This document shows positions 940-21,385 of a stretch of 64,000 nucleotides of DNA, piece by piece. The notes beneath the pieces were generated by a model. It ran no database searches. It had not been told where the DNA came from and saw only the letters and a program-made list of their open reading frames with translations. This DNA comes from Clostridia bacterium (GTDB lineage: Bacteria > Bacillota > Clostridia > Oscillospirales > CAG-272). The position numbers and the translations under genes are program-made. Position 1 is the stretch's first letter, and every line of letters begins with the position of its first letter. The stretch is from the NCBI GenBank assembly GCA_017452525.1, contig JAFTMG010000089.1:1-64000 (forward strand). The letters are read 5' to 3'.

Positions 940-2220
940 TTAATAAATATTTTTGATGTAATCCGCAACACACTCTATTTCCGGGAAAAGCGTGGCACGA
1001 TTTATGGAGAAAGTTGAGAGTTGCTCTAAGATCTTTTTCTTGTTTGACACCAAAACAATTACGGTTTTGCCTTTCTTCTTATATCTAAACTTATTTAATG
1101 TTTTAGGGTCTTGTGATAAACCGCACAAAATAAAGGCTCCGTCTTGCTTGATAATTCTATTATTGTTTTTTGTTGCCAAAATAATAATGTTTCTTAAAAG
1201 ATCCATTTTGTTTATATCGGCCCCGAAAGCGGGTTTTTCCAATCTTATCTCGTGAATAAGGCGAGATACCTTTAAGTTGAAATCTTCTTTGGTTATTGAT
1301 GAATCAAGGGCCAATTCGGAATAAGATTGTTGAATATCGTAACTAAATGCGGGCAAACTGGCTAAAATGGAGGCAGTATCGCTTTGCGGATAATAAATAG
1401 AATCCTTAGTAGCTGAAATAAGAATTATTTCACCGTAGTTATTATGCTGTGACTCACAGGCAAAATACAATGCAACCAGAGCATTTTTTGTAATATCCAA
1501 GAGTCTGGTTGGTAAACCATAATGTTGCATTTTTACCAGTTTTTCAAGGTGGCTGTTGCATTTTTCGAAATCCGTTGGGCAATTTATCAACAACTCATTG
1601 TACATTTCCCGCTCATTATACAACCAAGACAATTTTCGAGAAATAGACGGTTGAAGCCGATAGTTGGCGTTTGAATGACCTCGGTAATATAGTACGCTGT
1701 CATCTTTTTGATATGCGCCCATTGCTCTGTTGAAATCTGCAATCGAAGAAATGATTCTCAACTCGATTGTTTTTGAGTTGTAGAAAACACCTTTTTCATA
1801 TTCGATAACACAATCAATCGAGTTAAGTTCTTTTACTTTGGAAAACAGTTCCATAGTAAATTTCTTTCGTTCTTCTTCGTTGGGGAATATCATATACACC
1901 CAATAAACTATGGCATTTGCTTCTTCAATCAACATATCTTCAGAAGAACCAGGTTCTTCTTTGAACATTTCGTGCCATTGTTGATACGCAGTTTCATAAT
2001 CGGGGTAAGGGTGTTGATATAATTCAATATATTTGGATTTGCAATTAGCAAGGCGATATAGCATTTCTTCCTGGGTAATTTGAGCATTCACGAAATAACT
2101 CATGTCGCAGTATCCGTCATGAAGCATCTTATCAACACATATTTTATTAAATGCATGAAATACAGCAGGTATATCATATAACCTGTCAAAAAAGAAGAAA
2201 AAGAAGATAATCACCTCCAT
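940..2220 (-). CDS. FRG-domain protein
   Basis: The central part carries the hallmarks of the FRG domain: YYRGHSNANYRLQPS, then KMQHYGLPTRLLDITKNALVALYFACES. FRG domains occur in bacterial proteins of unknown biochemical activity, often in variable or defence-associated regions. The first 150 residues look like a separate, acidic helical segment (YPDYETAYQQWHEMF). The start is doubtful. The ATG at 2220 begins a peptide with six consecutive phenylalanines, and the bases just after it (GGAGGTGA) are themselves a perfect ribosome binding site, which implies a later start. The next in-frame ATGs are at 2127 and 2103, neither with a good site. A sigma-A promoter lies directly upstream. The gene is AT-rich like the interrupted gene beside it and sits 3' of a tRNA gene. 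The family call is firm; the function is open. Confidence 0.75.
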   Translation of the reverse strand: MEVIIFFFFFFDRLYDIPAVFHAFNKICVDKMLHDGYCDMSYFVNAQITQEEMLYRLANCKSKYIELYQHPYPDYETAYQQWHEMFKEEPGSSEDMLIEEANAIVYWVYMIFPNEEERKKFTMELFSKVKELNSIDCVIEYEKGVFYNSKTIELRIISSIADFNRAMGAYQKDDSVLYYRGHSNANYRLQPSISRKLSWLYNEREMYNELLINCPTDFEKCNSHLEKLVKMQHYGLPTRLLDITKNALVALYFACESQHNNYGEIILISATKDSIYYPQSDTASILASLPAFSYDIQQSYSELALDSSITKEDFNLKVSRLIHEIRLEKPAFGADINKMDLLRNIIILATKNNNRIIKQDGAFILCGLSQDPKTLNKFRYKKKGKTVIVLVSNKKKILEQLSTFSINRATLFPEIECVADYIKNIY

Positions 2221-2467: not shown

Positions 2468-2544
2468 TGGTCTGAGTGACAAGACTTGAACTTGCGGCCT
2501 CTACCACCCCAAGGTAGCGCGCTACCAGCTGCGCCACACCCAGA
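2468..2544 (-). tRNA. tRNA-Pro (anticodon GGG)
   Basis: A 77-base cloverleaf including an encoded 3' CCA (2470-2468). The acceptor arms are TCTGGGT and ACTCAGA with one G-T wobble; the D arm carries GCGCAGCTGGTAGCGC; the anticodon stem is CTACC/GGTAG around the loop TTGGGGT, giving anticodon GGG; the T arm has the standard TTCAAGT loop. It would read CCC and CCU proline codons. It has its own sigma-A promoter and terminator, so it is a single-gene unit. Confidence 0.93.
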
Positions 2545-4028: not shown

Positions 4029-5390
4029 ATGAAAATTTCAGTATTGGATATGGGCGCTGTCGCGGGTATGCGCGAACTGCAAACCCAAGCCTTTCAAATG
4101 GCTTTGGATGAGGTGTGGCAGTCCGGAGGAGGCACCGTGGTGGTTCCCGCGGGAGAATATCATATCGGCGCGATCCGTTTGCGTTCTTATACCACGCTGT
4201 ATCTTTGTGCCGGTGCCAAGATATTCGGCAGCCGTGTTCCAGAGGATTACTATATTTTACAGAACGACACTTTGGAGCCCCTACCTGACGAAATGCGTAC
4301 GGAAAAGCTTTACGAGCGTCCGCCGAAGGATCAGAAGCGGGATTATTCCTTTATGCTTCCCGGAGGACGGTGGTCGAACGGTCTGATCCGCGCTTGCTGT
4401 GCTGAAAATATCGCCATCATCGGCGAGCCCGGATCGGTGATCGATGGACGGGATTGCTATGATGAGGTCGGTGAAGAGAGCTACCGCGGCCCCCACGGAA
4501 TCAGCGTGCATCACTGTAAGAACGTCTATATGTCCGGTTACACCATTCAAAATACCGGCAATTGGGCGCACAATATCCATTCCTCACAGAATATTTGCTG
4601 TGAGGGTGTGACGGTGCTGGCGGGACATGACGGCGTTCATTTTGGCAACTGTGAAAACATTACCGTGAAGGATTGCGAATTCTACACGGGTGACGACTGT
4701 GTCGCGGGGTTTGCCAATGTCAACACACACGTGTACCGTTGCGTTCTGAATACCGCTTGTTCGGGTCTTCGTTTGGGCGGCACCAACGTTCTTGTGGAGC
4801 AGTGCCGCTTTTACGGACCCGCGAAATACTTTTTCCGCGGTAGCTTGAGTGTGGAGGAAAAGAAAAACGGCGCTGCCGCAAATCGCCCGCATCGCACGAA
4901 CATGCTGTCTGTTTTTACCTATTATGCCGATTTTTCTATGCCGATTCCCGTAAAGCCGGGGAATATCATCATCAAGGATTGTACGGCGGATCACGTGGAC
5001 CGATTCCTGCATTATAATTATTCAGGCAATGAACGTTGGCAGGCAAACAAGCCGCTCTCCTCGTTGATGCTGGAAAATATTCAGGCGACGGGCATTTCCA
5101 TGCCGATCACGTTATACGGCTCGGAGCAGGCGCCGTTGGATTTCACCATGAAGGACGTTACAGTGGCGTTTGCCGACCGTGAGGATGGAGCCTCCGTGCC
5201 CGTGTTCCGTGTGGCTCATTGTCGCAAGATGGATCTGGAGCGCGTGTCCTTTATTAAGAATACCGATGGCGATCTGATCCGCTCCTGGTCCGCCCCCGGA
5301 GACATTCGTTATCAGAACGTGACATATCACGTGCCGCAGGAGAAATGGTTTGCGCTGGCAGATGAGCCGTTTGTCTGCAAAGCAATTTAA
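4029..5390 (+). CDS. GH28-type right-handed beta-helix glycosidase (polygalacturonase-like)
   Basis: The 453-residue protein has an N-terminal segment typical of the pectin-lyase/GH28 fold (a substrate-flanking region with GGTVVVPAGEYHIGAI), then many short beta-helix rungs. The GH28 active-site core is visible as TGDDCVAG with the paired aspartates at residues 222-223, preceded by HDGVHFGNCENITVKDC and followed by CSGLRLGG. Family members hydrolyse galacturonic-acid, rhamnogalacturonan or related linkages. The usual NTD motif is replaced by HDGVHF, so the exact substrate is uncertain. No signal peptide is present, which implies a cytoplasmic enzyme acting on imported oligosaccharides. A transporter gene follows 39 bases downstream, and the glycyl radical enzyme genes come after that. 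Confidence 0.8.
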   Translation: MKISVLDMGAVAGMRELQTQAFQMALDEVWQSGGGTVVVPAGEYHIGAIRLRSYTTLYLCAGAKIFGSRVPEDYYILQNDTLEPLPDEMRTEKLYERPPKDQKRDYSFMLPGGRWSNGLIRACCAENIAIIGEPGSVIDGRDCYDEVGEESYRGPHGISVHHCKNVYMSGYTIQNTGNWAHNIHSSQNICCEGVTVLAGHDGVHFGNCENITVKDCEFYTGDDCVAGFANVNTHVYRCVLNTACSGLRLGGTNVLVEQCRFYGPAKYFFRGSLSVEEKKNGAAANRPHRTNMLSVFTYYADFSMPIPVKPGNIIIKDCTADHVDRFLHYNYSGNERWQANKPLSSLMLENIQATGISMPITLYGSEQAPLDFTMKDVTVAFADREDGASVPVFRVAHCRKMDLERVSFIKNTDGDLIRSWSAPGDIRYQNVTYHVPQEKWFALADEPFVCKAI

Positions 5391-5429: not shown

Positions 5430-6386
5430 ATGGTTTATTTGTTCGTTTTACTTACCTTGATTTTTTTGAGCATCAAGGGCTTTTGCGGGAAGAAAACGAG
5501 TACTTGTGTGCAGCAGGTAGGGGACGCTTTTCGCTTCAATATTTTACGGATGCTGCTGTGTTCACTGATCGGCTTCGTTGTCGTCTTCATGGAGGGGGCG
5601 CAGGGATCCTTTGCCATCGATCGGGGGATGTTGCTGATCTGCCTTCTGGCGGGCGTTTGCAACGCGATGTTCCTGATCGGCTGGATATTGGCGATCCGCA
5701 AAAATTCCATGGTCACCATGGACGTTTCTCTGACGCTCGGTTCGATCCTCCCCGCCGTACTGTGCGCGTGGCTGTTCGACGAGCCGATCTCGCTGACCAA
5801 AATGATCGGCTTTGTGCTGATCCTGGCAGCGGCAGGAATTTTGGCGGGGTACAATAAAAGCACCAAGGGAAGCTCTGGATTCGGAGGACTTCTGCTCGTC
5901 GTGATCGCCTCGGTGGGCGAGGGACTTGTCAGCTTTACACAGCAGCTGTATAAGCAGTACTATACCGAGGGTGGCAGCGTGGGCGCCGACACGTTTTACC
6001 CCAAGTCGATCTACAATTTCTATATCTACGTATTTGCCACCTTGGTGCTGATTTTGTGTCTCGTTGTGTATGATTTGATAAATCACATCAAAAAACCAAC
6101 GTTGCGTTGGACGGATGAAGTCAAGAGCGGTGCCCGCTCTCTGGTTGGTCCGCTGCCGTATATTGTTGTGATGGCAGTCAGTATGTTTGCCGCTACCTAT
6201 TTTCAAACCGTTGCCACGGGGGATTACGGTATGACCTCTCAGGTCCTCTATCCGCTGATCAAGGGCGGGTGTTTGATCACAGTCAACATCACCGCCATGC
6301 TGTTCTTTGGCGAAAAGATGACTAAGCGGAGCGTGTTGGGGTCTGCGGTAGCGCTGGTTGGCGTGGTCGTGATGAATGTATTTTAA
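5430..6386 (+). CDS. DMT/EamA-family transporter
   Basis: A 318-residue, very hydrophobic protein with about ten predicted membrane helices, the standard length and shape of a two-repeat EamA (drug/metabolite transporter) permease. The first repeat contains LLAGVCNAMFLIGWILAIRK and a DVSLTLGSILPAVLC helix; the second repeat ends in GSAVALVGVVVMNVF. Such permeases move small metabolites across the cytoplasmic membrane using ion gradients. It lies between the GH28 gene (39 bases) and the glycyl radical enzyme gene (11 bases), so it probably imports a sugar or exports a product of the same pathway. A ribosome binding site AAAGGA lies ten bases before the ATG. Confidence 0.8.
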   Translation: MVYLFVLLTLIFLSIKGFCGKKTSTCVQQVGDAFRFNILRMLLCSLIGFVVVFMEGAQGSFAIDRGMLLICLLAGVCNAMFLIGWILAIRKNSMVTMDVSLTLGSILPAVLCAWLFDEPISLTKMIGFVLILAAAGILAGYNKSTKGSSGFGGLLLVVIASVGEGLVSFTQQLYKQYYTEGGSVGADTFYPKSIYNFYIYVFATLVLILCLVVYDLINHIKKPTLRWTDEVKSGARSLVGPLPYIVVMAVSMFAATYFQTVATGDYGMTSQVLYPLIKGGCLITVNITAMLFFGEKMTKRSVLGSAVALVGVVVMNVF

Positions 6387-6397
6387 CGGAGAATATA

Positions 6398-8638
6398 ATG
6401 CATATGATGAATTTATCTGTCAATCTTTCTGAGGCTCGCTCGTCTCTTCGAGACAAGCCTCTTCTGGCGACTTCGGCAGAACGCCTGCTGATTTTGGATG
6501 AGCTGAAGTCTGCCCACAAAGAGCTTCCGCAGCCCGCGCGGTTTGCTAAGGCTTTGTCGGAGTTTCTGTCCCGCGTTTCCGTACCGCTCATGCCTCACGA
6601 TCTGATCGCGGGGCGGTGTGTGGATCGGGAACTGACCGAGGAGGAAGAGAAGATATTTCAGGCATTTGTTCGCCATCCGGATTATCCCTCCAAAATGCTC
6701 TTTCTCGGCTCGGGACATTGTACCTATTCCTGGGAGTCGGTAGTGGAGCTGGGATTGCCCGGCTTGCGTGCGCGGGCGGAAGAATCGCTTCGCCGGGTAG
6801 ACACCGAGGAGCAACGCGTGTTTTTGTCATCCATGGTTGCGGTATATGACGCGATCCGGGCGTATATGCTTCGCTATGCCGCCACAGCAAGAGAGCAGGG
6901 AATGGAGGAGCTTGCCGTGAGTCTGGAGAAGGGTGCCACAGAGAGCCCAAGAGATTTTCGGACTGCTCTTCAGCTCTTGTGGATCATCGCGCTGATCGAC
7001 TGCGCCTATATTACACCGAACCCGACGCTGACGCTGGGACGGCTGGATCAGATCCTGTATCCGCTGTATGAAGCGGATCTTGCCGCAGGCAGATTGACCC
7101 GTGAGATGGCGGGGGCGCTGATCACCGATTATTATTGCAAGCACAATCTGATCATGGGTCGCGGAGAGCATCAGGTGGGTGATGAAAGCAACAGTACCAC
7201 CTTTTTGCGCATTTGTAATTTCGACGCACCCCAATACCTGCTGTTGGCGGGAACGGACGGGCAGGGGAAGGACGCGGTCAACGATCTGACGCTGCTCTTT
7301 GCTGAATGTGTGGAGCCGTCCTTTAAAAATCCCGTTATCGTGGTGCGCTATTTCAAGGATATGAATACCGCGCACCCGAAGCTTTGGCGTGTGCTGATGG
7401 AAAAAGCGCTTGCAAGCGCCTCCATGATGTTTTATAACGACGACAACAGTCTCGCCACCTACCGCCGCTTGGGGATCCCGGAGGAGGACAGTAGGCAATA
7501 CTGCCATTTTGGCTGCAATTGGCCAACGCTTGGCGCGGACAGCGCGTGGGTACAAGGCGGACCGAAATCGTGGAAATACCACGCGTATACTTCTCTTGAG
7601 GAGGAGAAGCGGGTAAATATCCCGTATATGCGTATGGTGGGAGAACACGGTTTCCCGGGGGATTTTATGGATGTGCTTCGGGAATTTGCCGAGAAGGAAA
7701 GGGCGGGCGAGTCCTTTACGGTGGATGACTTGTACGACAAGTTTTTCGCTCACCTCTCGGATTTTACGGAGCAAAAGCTGGCGCACTGTGCCGAGGAGAT
7801 CTCGGTCCGCAAGCGCCGCCCTTCGGCCCTTATGACCTTTGGCGACTGCTTTATGGACCGCTCTGCCGTTGACGGAAAATGCTTCTCCGCCAATGCCAAA
7901 TACTTTTTTGAATTGCAGGCGTTCGGTATGTTTGGTACTGTGGCGGATTGCTTCATTACGGTGGACCGTTTGGTATTTCGCGAACGGAAGCTGACCGTAT
8001 GCCAACTGTTGGAGGCGGTGGATGCCAACTTTGAAGGAAACGCGCACGTATTGGCGCTTTGCCGCAACGTACCGAAGTACGGCAGCGATGACCCGATCGC
8101 CAACGCACATACCAAGCGGCTGGCGGAGGGCTTCTCCACCATTGTGATCGAAAGGAGCCGCCCTTATATTCAGAAGATGGGGCTGTATCTGACCCCGTGT
8201 CTGCAAAGTGACACGTGGCATTTGAAAAAGGGCGAGGAATACGGCGCGACCCCCAACGGTCGGCTTGCCAATACGCCGTTTTCGCAAAACGCGCGTCCTT
8301 CCAACGGCTCTTGCGTCAACGGGTTGACCGCCATGTTCAATTCCATGCTGAATATCCCCTCAGACGGGATTCTGTCCGGTGCGCTGAATCTGGACGTGTC
8401 CCCCGATCAATTCCGCGGCGAGCAGGGGCAGGCACTGTTCGGCGCATTGCTTGGTACCTATTTCAATCGGGGAGGCATGCACGCGCAGGTCAGCTGTGCC
8501 GACGTAAACGATCTGATCGATGCGCAAAAGCATCCCGAAGCCCATCGGGATCTGCGCGTGCGGGTAACGGGCTACAGCGGCATTTTTGTGGATATCTGCA
8601 AACGGTTGCAGGACGATATCATAGACCGATTTCAATGA
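6398..8638 (+). CDS. Glycyl radical enzyme (pyruvate formate-lyase-like), atypical active site
   Basis: This 746-residue protein has the size and architecture of a glycyl radical enzyme. The C terminus carries the radical site RVTGYSGIF with the glycine at residue 725; the classical form is RVxGYxA. The presumed thiyl-radical cysteine lies in YCHFGCNWPTLG, with cysteines at residues 369 and 373. Glycyl radical eliminases and decarboxylases carry GCxE, and pyruvate formate-lyase carries CC; neither is present here, so the glutamate base is missing. The enzyme would need the activase encoded at 9585. Dehydration, C-C cleavage or decarboxylation of a sugar-derived metabolite are all possible. 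Start: ATG 6398 follows ACGGAGA; ATGs at 6404 and 6407 are alternatives. It is followed without a gap by an aldo/keto reductase. Confidence 0.85.
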   Translation: MHMMNLSVNLSEARSSLRDKPLLATSAERLLILDELKSAHKELPQPARFAKALSEFLSRVSVPLMPHDLIAGRCVDRELTEEEEKIFQAFVRHPDYPSKMLFLGSGHCTYSWESVVELGLPGLRARAEESLRRVDTEEQRVFLSSMVAVYDAIRAYMLRYAATAREQGMEELAVSLEKGATESPRDFRTALQLLWIIALIDCAYITPNPTLTLGRLDQILYPLYEADLAAGRLTREMAGALITDYYCKHNLIMGRGEHQVGDESNSTTFLRICNFDAPQYLLLAGTDGQGKDAVNDLTLLFAECVEPSFKNPVIVVRYFKDMNTAHPKLWRVLMEKALASASMMFYNDDNSLATYRRLGIPEEDSRQYCHFGCNWPTLGADSAWVQGGPKSWKYHAYTSLEEEKRVNIPYMRMVGEHGFPGDFMDVLREFAEKERAGESFTVDDLYDKFFAHLSDFTEQKLAHCAEEISVRKRRPSALMTFGDCFMDRSAVDGKCFSANAKYFFELQAFGMFGTVADCFITVDRLVFRERKLTVCQLLEAVDANFEGNAHVLALCRNVPKYGSDDPIANAHTKRLAEGFSTIVIERSRPYIQKMGLYLTPCLQSDTWHLKKGEEYGATPNGRLANTPFSQNARPSNGSCVNGLTAMFNSMLNIPSDGILSGALNLDVSPDQFRGEQGQALFGALLGTYFNRGGMHAQVSCADVNDLIDAQKHPEAHRDLRVRVTGYSGIFVDICKRLQDDIIDRFQ

Positions 8639-8652
8639 AAAGGAGAATGACG

Positions 8653-9588
8653 ATGAATCACATTACTTTGTCCAACGGACTCCGGATCGCCCCCGTGGCG
8701 CTGGGTGCCATGAATTTTGGTACAACGACCTCCAAGGAGCAGGCGTATGCCGTTCTGGATGCGTATATCGATATGGGAGGTAACTTTATCGATACCTCCA
8801 ATAACTATGCTCACTGGGCAGGCACCGGTGATGAGAGCGAAACGGTGCTGGGCGAATGGCTGCGCGACCGCGGCTGCCGCGACCGTGTGGTGATCGCTAC
8901 CAAAGTCGGCTTTGACCGCCACGGCGAGGGCGCGGGGCTGAAAAAAGCGCAGATCGAATATTGGGTGGACGAGAGCCTGCGGAAGCTGGGAACCGATTAT
9001 ATCGATCTTTACTACGCCCACACCGATGAACCCACCACGCCGCTGGAGGAGACCATGGAGACCTTTGGCATGCTGGTGAAGAAGGGGAAGGTGCGTGTGC
9101 TTGGAGGAAGCAACTACGACACATGGCGTTTTTCCGAGGCAAATGCTTTGGCAAAGGCGAACGGCTGGACCCCTTATACTGTAATGCAGCAAAGATTTAC
9201 CTATCTGCATCCCCGCGCGGATATGGCACCCAAATATATTTTCAACGAATCTGTGAATCGGGAGCGACTGCGTTATTTGTGCGATAAGGACATTCCTCTC
9301 GTATCCTATTCCTGTCTCGCCAAGGGTGGCTATGAGGATACCTCTCGTATCCCCTCCGATTATATAGTCGGCGAGCGATTGGAGACTATCCGCAACATGG
9401 CGCAGGAAAAAGGTGTGAGCACCAGCGCGCTGGTTGTGGCTTGGATGGTTAATCTGTACCGTTGCGAGGGTTTCCCCCGTGTGATCCCGCTGTTTGCTTC
9501 CTCACGCGTCTCTCATTTTACGGACAATCTGAAGGGCGTGTCTTTGGCGCTTTCCGATGAAGAGATGGCAATTTTGAACCGCGCATGA
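8653..9588 (+). CDS. Aldo/keto reductase
   Basis: A 311-residue (beta/alpha)8-barrel oxidoreductase. The catalytic tetrad of the family is visible in order: the Asp and Tyr in GGNFIDTSNNYAHW, the Lys in VIATKVGF, and the His in DLYYAHTDEP. The cofactor-binding C-terminal part reads VIPLFASSRVSHFTDN. It reduces an aldehyde or ketone with NAD(P)H, or works in reverse. The start is ATG 8653, placed six bases after AGGAGA (8641-8646); earlier in-frame ATGs at 8635 and 8647 overlap or touch that site. Its stop overlaps the start of the activase gene (ATGA). Lying between a glycyl radical enzyme and its activase, it most likely handles the carbonyl product of the radical reaction or prepares its substrate. 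Confidence 0.88.
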   Translation: MNHITLSNGLRIAPVALGAMNFGTTTSKEQAYAVLDAYIDMGGNFIDTSNNYAHWAGTGDESETVLGEWLRDRGCRDRVVIATKVGFDRHGEGAGLKKAQIEYWVDESLRKLGTDYIDLYYAHTDEPTTPLEETMETFGMLVKKGKVRVLGGSNYDTWRFSEANALAKANGWTPYTVMQQRFTYLHPRADMAPKYIFNESVNRERLRYLCDKDIPLVSYSCLAKGGYEDTSRIPSDYIVGERLETIRNMAQEKGVSTSALVVAWMVNLYRCEGFPRVIPLFASSRVSHFTDNLKGVSLALSDEEMAILNRA

Positions 9589-10346
9589 CAGAACGCTATC
9601 CGCTGATTTTTGATGTTAAGCGCACCTCTACGGTCGATGGCCCCGGGGTGCGCACCGCGGTTTTTCTGAAGGGTTGCAACCTGGATTGCTTTTGGTGCCA
9701 TAATCCGGAGGGGAAGCGTGCGGAGATGGAATACGCATGGTTTGCCGAAAAGTGCCTTTCCTGTGGCGCGTGCCGCCGCGAAGGACTCAGCCCCGAGTTA
9801 TGTGTGGACCTCTGTCCCGCGCAGGCGCGCAAACGCTATGGGGCGCGGTACACACCGGATGAGCTGATGGCGGTCCTTGCGGCGGATCGGGATTTTTATC
9901 TTGCCACCGGAGGCGGTGTCACCTTCTCGGGCGGTGAGTGTATGCTGTATCCCGCATATCTGGCGGAGGTGGCGTCCCGATGCCAAGCGCAAGGGATCTC
10001 CGTTGCCATAGATACGGCGGGGAACGTTCCGTATTCCCATTTTGAACAGGTGCTTCCGTATACCGATCTGTTTTTGTATGATATCAAGTGTCTGGATCCC
10101 GCGCTTCATCGGCGCGGGACCGGATGCGGCAACGAATTGATCCTGGCAAATCTGGATCGCCTGATGCAGACGGGTAAGCAGATCCTGATCCGTGTTCCGC
10201 AGATCCCCGACTTCAATGAGGGTGAAGAGGTAACACGCATCTGCGCCTACTGTGCTGACCGTGGGCTTGCCTGTGAGGTGTTGCCTTATCATCGCTTTGG
10301 CGAGGATAAAAAGCAGGCACTGGGCAGAGAGATGCTACATGAATGA
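9585..10346 (+). CDS. Glycyl radical enzyme activating enzyme (radical SAM)
   Basis: The 253-residue protein begins with the signature of glycyl radical enzyme activases, RTSTVDGPGVRTAVFLKGC, followed by the radical SAM cluster motif C31-x3-C35-x2-C38 (CNLDCFWCHNPEG). An inserted cysteine-rich stretch, CLSCGAC and later CVDLCP, should hold one extra [4Fe-4S] cluster, fewer than the two found in many eliminase activases. GGGVTFSGGECMLYP matches the SAM-binding GGE motif. It cleaves S-adenosylmethionine to abstract hydrogen from Gly725 of the enzyme at 6398. Its ATG overlaps the stop of the aldo/keto reductase by four bases, so translation is coupled. Confidence 0.92.
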   Translation: MTERYPLIFDVKRTSTVDGPGVRTAVFLKGCNLDCFWCHNPEGKRAEMEYAWFAEKCLSCGACRREGLSPELCVDLCPAQARKRYGARYTPDELMAVLAADRDFYLATGGGVTFSGGECMLYPAYLAEVASRCQAQGISVAIDTAGNVPYSHFEQVLPYTDLFLYDIKCLDPALHRRGTGCGNELILANLDRLMQTGKQILIRVPQIPDFNEGEEVTRICAYCADRGLACEVLPYHRFGEDKKQALGREMLHE

Positions 10347-17447: not shown

Positions 17448-19205
17448 ATGAGTATGACAAATTCGATCCCTCGCCCCGAACATCCCCGCCCGCAGTTTGT
17501 GCGTGACCGCTGGATGAATCTCAACGGAGAGTGGGATTTTCTTTTTGATTTTGGTAATTCCGGTGTAGAACGTGAGCTTTTCCGCCCGGAGCGCTTCAAA
17601 AAAGCGGAGCCGAGAAAGATCACCGTGCCGTTCTGTCCTGAAAGCAGACTTTCGGGAATTGGATACGTGGACTGGATAGCGGCGGTATGGTACCGTCGCG
17701 CTGTAACGCTGACTGCCGAGCAGTTGGCGGGCAGAGTGATCCTTCATTTCGGCGCGGTCGACTACCATTCGATCCTTTGGATCAACGAGCGGAAGGTCGG
17801 TGAGCACCGCGGCGGATACTCCTCCTTTGAATACGACGTGACCGATTTTTTGTGTGAGGGCGACAACGAGATCATTCTGTATGCCGAGGATGACAACCGC
17901 ACCAAGAAGCAGCCCTTCGGCAAACAGTCGGATAAGTTTTACTCTCATGCCTGCTCCTACACCCGAACTACGGGTATCTGGCAGACGGTGTGGCTGGAGT
18001 TTGTGCCGAAGGAATACATTTGCTATGCCAAGATCACGCCCTTTGCCCGGGATGGGCGCGCCGTGGTGGACGTGGAGACCGTTGGCGGCGAGACGGTGAC
18101 GGCTGAAGCGTATTATGAGGGCAAGAAGGTAGGGCAGGCAACGGCGAAGATCGTTGGCGGCAAGGCATCCGTGAATCTTGCACTTTCCGAGCTACATTTG
18201 TGGGACGTGAGACAGCCCAACCTCTACGATCTGACCTTGAAACTGGACGGTGCGGATACCGTACAGAGCTATTTCGGTATGCGCTCAGTGGAGCTGAAGG
18301 CAGACGGTCTGTATCTCAACGGCAAGCCGCTCTTTATGCGCACCATTCTGGATCAGGGCTTCAATCCCGAGGGCATTTATACCGCACCCTCCGATGCGTT
18401 TTTGAAGCATGACATTGAGCTGACGATGGAGCTTGGCTTCAACGGCGCGCGGCTCCATCAGCGTGTCTTTGAGGAGCGCTCGCTCTATTGGGCAGACCAT
18501 CTCGGCTATATCGTCTGGGGCGAGTATGCCAACGGCACACCCATGAGCGATGCTCGCGGTATCGGTTATTTTCTGCCCGAGTGGATGGAGACGGTGCGCC
18601 GTGACTACAGCCACCCTGCCATCATCGGCTGGTGTCCGGAAAACGAGTCCTATTGGACCCACGATATTCACGAGATCTGCCAGACCACCTATTATCATGT
18701 CACCAAGCAAATGGACCCCTACCGTCCTGTCATCGACTCCTCGGGCGGTGTCCATTTCATCACCGACATGTATGATATTCACGAGTATACCCAAAGCCCG
18801 GAGCGGATGCAGGAGAAGCTGGCGCCCATGCTGGAGGATCCGAATTACGTGCATAATCCCATTCATCAGGAGCAGCTCAAGCTGAACCGCTTCAACGGTC
18901 AGCCCGTCTGGGTCAGTGAATACGGCGGAACCTATTGGAATCCCGATGAGCCGGGCGGCTGGGGCTACGGTAACGCGCCCAAGAGCGAGGAAGAATTTGC
19001 CGAGCGCTATGCGGGGCTGACGAAGGTTCTTTTGGACCATCCTCGCATTTGCGGCTTCTGCTATACACAACTGACCGATATTGAGCAGGAACAAAACGGA
19101 CTTTACAAATATGACCGCTCCCGCAAGTTCTCCGATATGGTATATGACCGCATCCGTGAGGCGAATTTGCAGACATCGTATTTTGAAAAACATCCCAAGA
19201 GGTGA
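17448..19205 (+). CDS. Glycoside hydrolase family 2 (beta-galactosidase/glucuronidase-like)
   Basis: The 585-residue protein has the GH2 layout: an N-terminal sugar-binding jelly roll (MNLNGEWDFLFDF), an immunoglobulin-like middle domain, and a catalytic TIM barrel from about residue 290. The acid/base glutamate is Glu400 in GWCPENESYW, preceded by the family Asn, and the nucleophile is Glu491 in VWVSEYGG. GH2 enzymes release beta-linked galactose, glucuronate, mannose or similar residues. At 585 residues it is a short member without extra C-terminal domains. It has no signal peptide, so it acts in the cytoplasm. AAGGAGAG precedes the ATG. It heads a five-gene operon of sugar-related proteins. 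Confidence 0.9.
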   Translation: MSMTNSIPRPEHPRPQFVRDRWMNLNGEWDFLFDFGNSGVERELFRPERFKKAEPRKITVPFCPESRLSGIGYVDWIAAVWYRRAVTLTAEQLAGRVILHFGAVDYHSILWINERKVGEHRGGYSSFEYDVTDFLCEGDNEIILYAEDDNRTKKQPFGKQSDKFYSHACSYTRTTGIWQTVWLEFVPKEYICYAKITPFARDGRAVVDVETVGGETVTAEAYYEGKKVGQATAKIVGGKASVNLALSELHLWDVRQPNLYDLTLKLDGADTVQSYFGMRSVELKADGLYLNGKPLFMRTILDQGFNPEGIYTAPSDAFLKHDIELTMELGFNGARLHQRVFEERSLYWADHLGYIVWGEYANGTPMSDARGIGYFLPEWMETVRRDYSHPAIIGWCPENESYWTHDIHEICQTTYYHVTKQMDPYRPVIDSSGGVHFITDMYDIHEYTQSPERMQEKLAPMLEDPNYVHNPIHQEQLKLNRFNGQPVWVSEYGGTYWNPDEPGGWGYGNAPKSEEEFAERYAGLTKVLLDHPRICGFCYTQLTDIEQEQNGLYKYDRSRKFSDMVYDRIREANLQTSYFEKHPKR

Positions 19206-19210
19206 GAGTT

Positions 19211-21385
19211 ATGGCATTATTACCGGAAGTGAGAAAAATCGTGCCGCAGGCAGAACAGTTTCCCTGTCGATGGCAAACGGTCATTTTCCGCAATTATCGC
19301 ATGGTGTCTGCCGAGCGTATTGCGCGCGTGCTGGAATGCACGGCAGAGGATGTTCACAGGGAGGCGGCGCGCCTCGGTTTGCGGACAGGGGAGCATGATC
19401 CCCGTTGGATGACGGAGGGCTATATTACCGTCATCCGAAACAATTGGTATCTTTTACCTTATGATCAATTATTGAACTTGCTGGATTTTACCGAGGAAAG
19501 ACTTGCGTTTTCCTTGGAAAAGGATGACTTTCTCAATGTCAAGCTGGGGCGGTATAAGCCGGAATGTGCGCGCGCTGTCTATCAGCCTCTGACCGAGGAT
19601 CAACTTGCTGAGACGACGCAGATCGCCAGGACCGTTCGCCAATGGGATATCTCGGGGCGCACCTATTTTGACTTTTTTCCGCCCGTCAAACGTACCGCAA
19701 AGCTTTTACCGAGGCAGGGAAAATCCCTACGTCTTGTGCATGGATATCTGACACCCTGCGGTGATGCCTTTATTGAGGATACGCGCTCCCATTTGTCCGA
19801 CGCGCTTCTGGATCGGTATGCCGAGTGTGGGATCAACGCGCTCTTTATTCACGGTGTGCTGTCCTCGCTCTCACCGTATCCCTTTGATCCGGAGCTGTCT
19901 CGCGATTATCCCACACGCCGTGCCCATCTGCGCGATCTGGTCGAGCGGGCAGGCGATCGGGGGATCCGGATATATCTCTATCTGAACGAGCCGCGCGCGC
20001 TTCCCGTGTCCTGGTTCGGCACCCGTGTGGACGCTTCGCTGATGGGGCACCGTCAGGGGGATTATGCGGCGCTTTGTCTCAATACCAAGGAGGGACGGGA
20101 TTATCTTTACACGGCGGTTCGCAGCCTGTTTGAGGCAATCCCCGATATTGGCGGTGTATTTACCATTACCAAGAGTGAAAATTTCACGCACTGTACCTAT
20201 GGTGGATATTCGTTGGATAAATGCACCTGCCCGCGATGCGCCAAGCTTCCCGTGGAGACCATGCCTGCCGTGACCAATAATATCATCATGGAAGCGATCC
20301 GCGATAGTGGCAGTAAAGCGGAGCTGATCGCCAATTTGTGGGGCTGGTCCCCAGCACTCGGCTGGTCGGATGAGCAGATCGCCCACGCGCTGGAGATATT
20401 GGACCGTGATATCGTCGCGCTCGGCATCAGTGATTACGACCTTGCCATCGAAAAGGGCGGCGTCAAGAGCCACGTGATTGATTATTCCATTTCCAATCCC
20501 GGTCCCAGCGAAGTAACACAGAAAGCGTTAACGCAGGCGGCAAAGCTTGGACATAAGACCTATGCTAAGGTTCAGATGAATTGCAGCTGGGAGCTCTCCT
20601 CGGTGCCGTATCTGCCCGTGTTCGATCTGGAGCTGGAGCATTTGCAGAACCTTCACGCCATCGGCGTGGATGATCTGATGCTGACGTGGACCTTAGGTGG
20701 TTACCCCTCCATTGCTTACGATATGGTGGCTGATTATCAGGAGGATCCCGACGGATTTTCCATGGACCGTTGGTATGAGAAGCACTTCGGGGAAAACGCC
20801 GGTGACGTTCATCGCGCGGTGGAGCTGTTTTGCCGCGGATTCCGCGAGTTTCCGTTCGGCGTGAGAGTGCTCTATTCCTCTCCCAAAAACCTTGGTCCTG
20901 CCAATCTTTGGAATCTTGTGCCTGAAGAGAAACACTCTACCATGGTCTGCTATTCCTTTGATGATTACGAGAAATGGATCTATCCTTATTCGCCGGAGAT
21001 CTATCTGTCGCAGTTTGAAAAGCTGATTGCGGACTGGCAGGCGGGATGCGATGCGTTGGCAACCGTTCGCGGCTTACCTCTGATCGAGGATATGCTTTTG
21101 TACGCCCACGTTGCGCTGGTGCATTTCAAATCGGATATAATTCATACCCGTTATGCGCTTGCCAAGAGGAAAGGGGATATGGAAACGCTGCTCGGACTGC
21201 TTGATGTGGAGCGGGAACTTGCGGAGGAGCTATTGATACTGTCTGCGCAGTCGCCGCTGATCGGCTATGAGACTTCGAATCATTATTTCTACACCGAACG
21301 AAATCTGATCGAGAAAATATTACAGATGGATCAGATGCATCAACGGATCGTAGATAATTCGGAACAAAACCGGAAAGGAAAATGA
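19211..21385 (+). CDS. Large unrecognised protein, probable glycosidase-type barrel
   Basis: A 724-residue soluble protein that I cannot assign to a named family. The N terminus (RIARVLECTAEDVHREAARLGL) looks like a small helical domain; the middle, about residues 170-480, alternates strands and helices like a TIM barrel (LDRYAECGINALFIHG, LVERAGDRGIRIYLYLNEP, GGVFTITKSENFTHC). It holds CTCPRCAK, a possible metal or structural cysteine motif, and a C-terminal helical part. Position between a GH2 enzyme and an oxidoreductase suggests a glycoside hydrolase, perhaps distantly like beta-hexosaminidases. GAGGTG upstream favours ATG 19211; the gene starts five bases after the GH2 stop codon. Confidence 0.7.
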   Translation: MALLPEVRKIVPQAEQFPCRWQTVIFRNYRMVSAERIARVLECTAEDVHREAARLGLRTGEHDPRWMTEGYITVIRNNWYLLPYDQLLNLLDFTEERLAFSLEKDDFLNVKLGRYKPECARAVYQPLTEDQLAETTQIARTVRQWDISGRTYFDFFPPVKRTAKLLPRQGKSLRLVHGYLTPCGDAFIEDTRSHLSDALLDRYAECGINALFIHGVLSSLSPYPFDPELSRDYPTRRAHLRDLVERAGDRGIRIYLYLNEPRALPVSWFGTRVDASLMGHRQGDYAALCLNTKEGRDYLYTAVRSLFEAIPDIGGVFTITKSENFTHCTYGGYSLDKCTCPRCAKLPVETMPAVTNNIIMEAIRDSGSKAELIANLWGWSPALGWSDEQIAHALEILDRDIVALGISDYDLAIEKGGVKSHVIDYSISNPGPSEVTQKALTQAAKLGHKTYAKVQMNCSWELSSVPYLPVFDLELEHLQNLHAIGVDDLMLTWTLGGYPSIAYDMVADYQEDPDGFSMDRWYEKHFGENAGDVHRAVELFCRGFREFPFGVRVLYSSPKNLGPANLWNLVPEEKHSTMVCYSFDDYEKWIYPYSPEIYLSQFEKLIADWQAGCDALATVRGLPLIEDMLLYAHVALVHFKSDIIHTRYALAKRKGDMETLLGLLDVERELAEELLILSAQSPLIGYETSNHYFYTERNLIEKILQMDQMHQRIVDNSEQNRKGK

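Follow-up and report, generated by a model that had tools for sequence, protein, structure and literature searches.

A clade of glycyl radical enzymes from gut and rumen Clostridia with C-N-W in place of the Cys-x-Glu motif

Gene layout and features of the locus

The window, by which we mean the whole 64,000-nucleotide stretch of DNA analyzed, contains at 6398-8638 an open reading frame that an earlier note had picked out as a glycyl radical enzyme (GRE). The frame translates as that note stated, and its observation was confirmed. The GRE gene, its neighbors, and the codons and motif discussed below are as follows; counts refer to an alignment of 46 clade sequences and to 36 comparison GREs.

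4029-5390, plus strand: GH28-like polygalacturonase/rhamnogalacturonidase (PF00295, 45.5 bits)
5430-6386, plus strand: EamA-type membrane protein of the drug/metabolite transporter superfamily (PF00892)
6398-8638, plus strand: GRE gene of the C-N-W clade, 746 amino acids (PF02901, 206 bits; PF01228, 71 bits; AF2 model)
6716-6718, plus strand: codon of His107, the equivalent of HypD His160 (46/46 in the clade, 22/36 in comparison GREs)
7157-7174, plus strand: GRGEHQ, residues 254 to 259 (in 46/46 clade sequences but hardly any comparison GREs)
7514-7516, plus strand: codon of Cys373, the thiyl-radical position, aligned with HypD Cys434 (46/46 in the clade, 36/36 in comparison GREs)
7520-7522, plus strand: codon of Trp375, at the position of the catalytic CXE Glu, aligned with HypD Glu436
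8210-8212, plus strand: codon of Asp605, at the position of substrate-binding HypD Thr645 (Asp in 46/46 of the clade and in none of the comparison GREs)
8570-8572, plus strand: codon of Gly725, the glycyl-radical position in RVTGYSG, aligned with HypD Gly765 (46/46 in the clade)
8653-9588, plus strand: aldo-keto reductase (AKR), 311 amino acids, the conserved partner gene (PF00248, 194 bits; co-occurrence)
9585-10346, plus strand: GRE-activating radical SAM enzyme, 253 amino acids (TIGR02494, 263 bits against a cut-off of 174; CX3CX2C)

The GRE, AKR, and activase genes follow one another in that order, with a 14-bp gap between the first two and a 4-bp overlap between the last two, and form a tight operon. 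The activase had been described as adjacent to the GRE gene; a dedicated activase is indeed present, but it does not directly adjoin the GRE gene, since the AKR gene (8653-9588) lies between them. The activase has the radical SAM CX3CX2C motif and a ferredoxin-like Cys cluster, and the AKR has an intact D47-Y52-K84-H123 tetrad. Homologues of the EamA-type protein, which is probably an importer, are encoded directly 5′ of the GRE gene in several relatives. The GH28-like gene had no match near the GRE gene in the other loci tested, and hence its association with the GRE is not conserved. No PTS genes were seen adjoining the window's GRE gene. Its neighbors are the EamA, AKR, and activase genes, and no small iron-sulfur subunits like those of the X-succinate synthases (XSS) are encoded between or beside the GRE, AKR, and activase genes.

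Both the PFL-like (PF02901) and the Gly_radical (PF01228) Pfam domains scored above their cut-offs. Cys373 lies within YCHFGCNWPTLG, and Gly725 lies within RVRVTGYSGIF (RVTGYSG). An AF2 model built from the clade alignment (pLDDT, 94.4; pTM, 0.94) has the GRE fold, with Cys373 and Gly725 in loops between short strands. The Cys-Cys pair of pyruvate formate-lyase (PFL) is absent, Cys373 being single, and TIGR01255 gave 57 bits against a cut-off of 994. The radical Gly is kept in all 46 clade sequences, with no Ala, Ser, or Thr swap of the kind found in aminoacyl radical enzymes. Judged by its RVxG[FWY] motif, domains, catalytic Cys, predicted fold, and nearby activase, the protein is a member of the GRE superfamily, in agreement with its earlier description as a true radical enzyme; enzymes of this kind are oxygen sensitive.

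Elsewhere in the window, a 426-amino-acid open reading frame at 940-2220 (minus strand) has consecutive Phe codons in its N-terminal part, along with a YRGHSNANYRLQPS stretch that may recall FRG-domain proteins. A tRNA-Pro (ggg) gene at 2468-2543 (minus strand) is overlapped by a probably spurious open reading frame on the same strand. A 727-amino-acid protein is encoded at 19202-21385 (plus strand); a relative of it, without a Pfam match, is encoded beside a GRE gene at another locus (L080, 6785-8986).

Conservation of the Cys loop and of the mapped pocket

The 46 clade sequences (30 to 66% identity, with one locus entered twice) were drawn both from public genomes and from the taxonomic family to which the window belongs; the comparison set consisted of 35 non-PFL GREs and the PFL encoded in the window's genome (CCVS). 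Where GRE eliminases have the CXE motif, the window's GRE has C-N-W. The residue two positions after the Cys is Trp in 44 of the 46 clade sequences and His in the other 2, whereas it is Glu in 35/35 non-PFL comparison GREs; the Cys and the Asn of the clade Cys loop are both invariant (46/46 each). The claim that the loop carries neither GCxE nor CC was thus borne out. Such conservation goes far beyond chance or sequencing error. Dozens of contigs carry the motif in an uninterrupted frame, and for this reason too sequencing error, as well as a pseudogene, was rejected. Clade hosts are uncultured gut and rumen Clostridia. Other families of the same class yielded four more members, which have GCNW or PCNW together with GRGEHQ, and among 398 sampled genomes across the phylum no clade member scored above 200 bits outside the window's own genome. 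A Cys loop without GCxE or CC is not unprecedented, because benzylsuccinate synthase (BSS) has Ser495 two residues past the catalytic Cys493 (PMC13298812) and PFL has its Cys-Cys pair.

The window's genome encodes eight GREs, and the six others besides PFL keep Cys-x-Glu. These six short non-PFL GREs (L008 to L012 and L014) have unusual motifs, combining ACWE with RVWGWS or RIWGWS, GCYE with RVCGWN, GCWE with RVSGWN, and GCTE with RVGGYS; they look like additional unassigned GRE subfamilies.

In known GRE eliminases, the CXE Glu is regarded as the catalytic base. The active site of HypD has been tested by mutagenesis, the Gln variant of its CXE Glu is inactive, and CXE is described as conserved among eliminases (PMC7077986). 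When HypD positions were mapped onto the window's GRE, Cys434, Gly765, and His160 corresponded to Cys373, Gly725, and His107, respectively; Glu436 corresponded to Trp375, Asp278 to Pro209, Ser334 to Ile272, Asp339/Phe340 to Ala277/Pro278, and Thr645 to Asp605. Most of the mappable HypD active-site positions are replaced in the clade. GRGEHQ is inserted immediately ahead of the short helix that lies between β2 and β3. A total of 27 residues are invariant in the clade and rare elsewhere, and 12 of these, including the whole of GRGEHQ, Arg271, Asp276, and Asp605, fall in the mapped active-site segments, which make up ~10% of the length; the hypergeometric P value for this enrichment (~1e-6) is indicative only, since the alignment was already known when the segments were picked.

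The earlier note had suggested that Cys369 or His370 might supply the base. Both are unlikely to do so because they are not conserved: position 369 is mostly Glu, Ala, Thr, His, or Ser in relatives, and His370 is kept in 31 of 46 sequences. On the basis of conservation, the invariant residues His107, Glu257/His258, Asp276, and Asp605 appear to be better candidates, and we infer a candidate acid-base set of Asp605, His107, and Glu257/His258. Of the fumarate-binding residues of BSS (Arg508 and Gln707), Gln707 lies 122 residues before the radical Gly; by position count, Gln603 sits at the same distance, and Gln is found there in only 24 of the 46 clade sequences.

Relationship to other GREs and to the aldo-keto reductase

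In a maximum likelihood tree of 65 rows, obtained with a short search and containing some long branches among the clade's neighbors, the C-N-W/H proteins were monophyletic (SH-aLRT, 100; stem, 1.15). They grouped (99) with the short CxE GREs encoded in the window's genome, and their nearest neighbors keep CXE; they stood apart from the YbiW, PflD, HypD, glycerol dehydratase-like, and CutC-like rows. All NCBIfam GRE models scored far below their cut-offs, those for HypD, CutC, HPAD, IAD, and HpsG/HpfG giving 129 to 205 bits against 1000 to 1150. Solved non-PFL GREs matched the model with VIA Z values mostly of 30 to 34 and 20 to 26% identity, with no closest one; some BSS and CutC entries gave Z values of 27 to 28, PFL gave 25, and NrdD gave 18, and identity to any solved GRE was at most about 26%. 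Since the non-PFL GREs are roughly equidistant by these values, we rejected the closest solved relative as a guide to the substrate. Plasmid records held only GREs ~24 to 35% identical over the matched part, and PHROGs matches were uninformative.

No clustering with a characterized GRE, a possibility that the earlier note had raised, was found in the tree, the families, or the structures, and no characterized enzyme with GCNW was found by family models, the tree, or structure comparison. The papers, protein-family libraries, and solved structures searched, with subscription journals mostly outside the literature search, gave no name for a group of short GREs that combine C-N-W/H and GRGEHQ with an AKR partner. 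The best reading is that the C-N-W clade is a new GRE subfamily. We file the gene product as a GRE and, having C-N-W in place of CXE, not as an eliminase, although it perhaps works in an eliminase-like manner.

Coupling of the GRE to the AKR is plain. Of 23 distinct close relatives, 22 have the AKR gene directly 3′ of the GRE gene, as do 4/4 members of the next subclade; in the close relatives the AKR is 65 to 83% identical to that of the window, mostly above the identity of the GREs. Among 395 same-family genomes, the AKR was present in 27/27 with AKR-bearing GRE subclades versus 3/368 of the others (Fisher P value of 9e-39, inflated by the relatedness of the genomes). The 27 include two genomes with the GCNH form, in which the AKR gene is not directly downstream of the GRE gene. 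No other AKR passed an E value of 1e-70 in 299 genomes of the phylum. In one of the 3 other genomes with the AKR, a C-N-W GRE gene beside it has a frame break between its halves (L135, about 7157-7163), which may be an assembly error. Two genomes carry the AKR in a shared context without a neighboring GRE and gave no substrate clue; the nearest solved relatives of the AKR (DepB, YghZ, and others) were rejected as a substrate guide because they are too distant. In one subclade (L046, L047, and L051), the operon is divergent to adjoining genes whose products match Rnf subunits (Complex1_51K/ferredoxin and NQR2_RnfD_RnfE domains), a possible link to the balance of NADH and ferredoxin. A tandem arrangement of two C-N-W GRE genes was also seen (L053, L054, and L057).

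Glycosidases of families GH28, GH78, GH36, GH42, GH2, GH32, GH38, and GH43 are encoded near different clade members; because they vary between loci, we rejected genome context as a source of the substrate. The AKR is absent from a distant subclade (30 to 35% identity), in which some loci encode a DeoC-type aldolase, an FGGY or PfkB kinase, or a GFO/IDH dehydrogenase. Given this subclade without the AKR, the clade probably covers several activities, apparently in carbohydrate use.

Proposed chemistry, alternatives, and comparison with known systems

GRE activation and formation of the Cys thiyl are standard across the family. Our best explanation, which is tentative and which we would place somewhat short of probable, is that the protein is an active GRE that works as a C-O lyase in the manner of the eliminases. 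Its substrate would be a sugar-derived polyol or sugar acid, its acid/base set a substituted one, and its activity coupled to that of the AKR. The activase would place the radical on Gly725, from which it would move to Cys373. The Cys373 thiyl would then abstract a hydrogen atom from this small substrate, which the EamA protein may import and which Arg271, GRGEHQ, and Trp375 would hold in place. The next step would be elimination of an α-hydroxyl, or cleavage of a ring oxygen as in the anhydrohexitol-6-phosphate lyases, with the acid-base work of the lost Glu taken over by His107 and Asp605 and/or Glu257/His258. The AKR would either reduce a carbonyl product or make the hydroxyl-bearing substrate. 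YbiW and PflD cleave anhydrohexitol-6-phosphates to 1-deoxyfructose-6-phosphate, and 1,5-anhydroglucitol is made by reductases that include AKRs (PMC12441222). YbiW and PflD are thus a precedent for sugar GREs, and the AKR could work on either side of the GRE step.

Elimination seems somewhat likelier than the alternatives, given the retention of His107, the CXE motif of the nearest tree neighbors, a reductase as partner, and a setting of carbohydrate breakdown. However, the inactivity of the HypD Gln variant (PMC7077986) means that loss of the Glu could equally point to a reaction that is not an elimination, for example cleavage of a C-C bond or an addition that needs no general base, as in the XSS enzymes, whose Cys loop likewise has no Glu, or sugar epimerization by hydrogen atom transfer. 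The AKR and GRE would then catalyze successive steps on a sugar carbon skeleton. Such chemistry is a serious but doubtful alternative. BSS, with Ser495, is a known case in which loss of the Glu goes with chemistry of this kind, PFL also works without the Glu, most of the mappable HypD pocket is replaced, and the clade is about as far from the eliminases as from other non-PFL GREs; on the other hand, a His common to many eliminases is strictly kept at position 107, the nearest tree neighbors have CXE, XSS-type small iron-sulfur subunits are missing in and next to the operon, and close coupling to a reductase fits a pathway of the eliminase type.

We consider it unlikely that the enzyme has a known GRE activity, such as that of an anhydrohexitol-phosphate lyase or a diol dehydratase, with the Glu functionally replaced and only that residue new. 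The fold and the catalytic Cys and Gly are those of glycerol/propanediol dehydratase and PflD/YbiW, and the surroundings are rich in sugar genes, but identity to any such enzyme is at most about 26%, all NCBIfam scores are below cut-off, the tree separates the clade from the YbiW, PflD, HypD, glycerol dehydratase-like, and CutC-like rows, and no PTS was seen beside the window's GRE. Although a residue essential in a characterized eliminase has been lost, a catalytically dead or regulatory homologue is highly improbable, since clade members retain Cys373, Gly725, RVTGYS, and an activase of their own, extra invariant polar residues have been gained, and the operon is tight.

It is possible, if distinctly uncertain, that the C-N-W/H proteins make up a new GRE class with a mechanism of its own, belonging with neither the CXE eliminases and decarboxylases, the Cys-Cys PFLs, the XSS enzymes, nor the ribonucleotide reductases. 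In a radical reaction on a sugar derived from plant polysaccharide, its members would rely on Asp605, His107, and Glu257/His258 of GRGEHQ as a new acid-base set, with coupling to an AKR, in gut anaerobes. The CXE Glu underlies mechanistic accounts of GRE eliminases and of some decarboxylases. A clade that has kept the radical machinery while the Glu and much of the mapped pocket were replaced is a natural test of the need for that base, and it points to an unassigned anaerobic pathway for sugars or polyols, made up of a GRE and a reductase, in Clostridia of the gut and rumen. Clade, partner gene, and candidate catalytic residues are defined specifically enough for tests by expression and mutagenesis.

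Compared with the GRE eliminases (glycerol/propanediol dehydratase, HypD, CutC, IslA, and HpsG), the window's GRE is alike in fold (best Z values of ~30.7 to 33.5, 23 to 26% identity), in its catalytic Cys and Gly, in its dedicated activase, and, for many of them, in the equivalent of His107; it differs in lacking the CXE Glu, in the GRGEHQ insert, and in having Asp605 for HypD Thr645 and Pro209 for HypD Asp278. YbiW and PflD share the fold (Z values of 32.5 to 33.9) and a setting in sugar metabolism, but they keep GCIE/GCVE and lie elsewhere in the tree, and no PTS was seen alongside the window's GRE. Like the window's GRE, the XSS enzymes BssA and MasD lack a Glu two residues after the catalytic Cys (Ser495 in BSS); in contrast, identity is 20 to 21%, and XSS enzymes have accessory subunits that the window's operon lacks. 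The short CxE GREs that the window's genome also encodes are similar in size (~670 to 760 amino acids) and group with the clade (99), whereas they keep GCWE, ACWE, GCYE, or GCTE and have other letters in the Gly loop. Aminoacyl radical enzymes are GRE homologues in which the radical Gly is replaced (JACS 2024, PMC11528403). Both they and the window's GRE depart from a supposedly universal residue, but the window's GRE keeps the Gly and has lost the Glu of the Cys loop.
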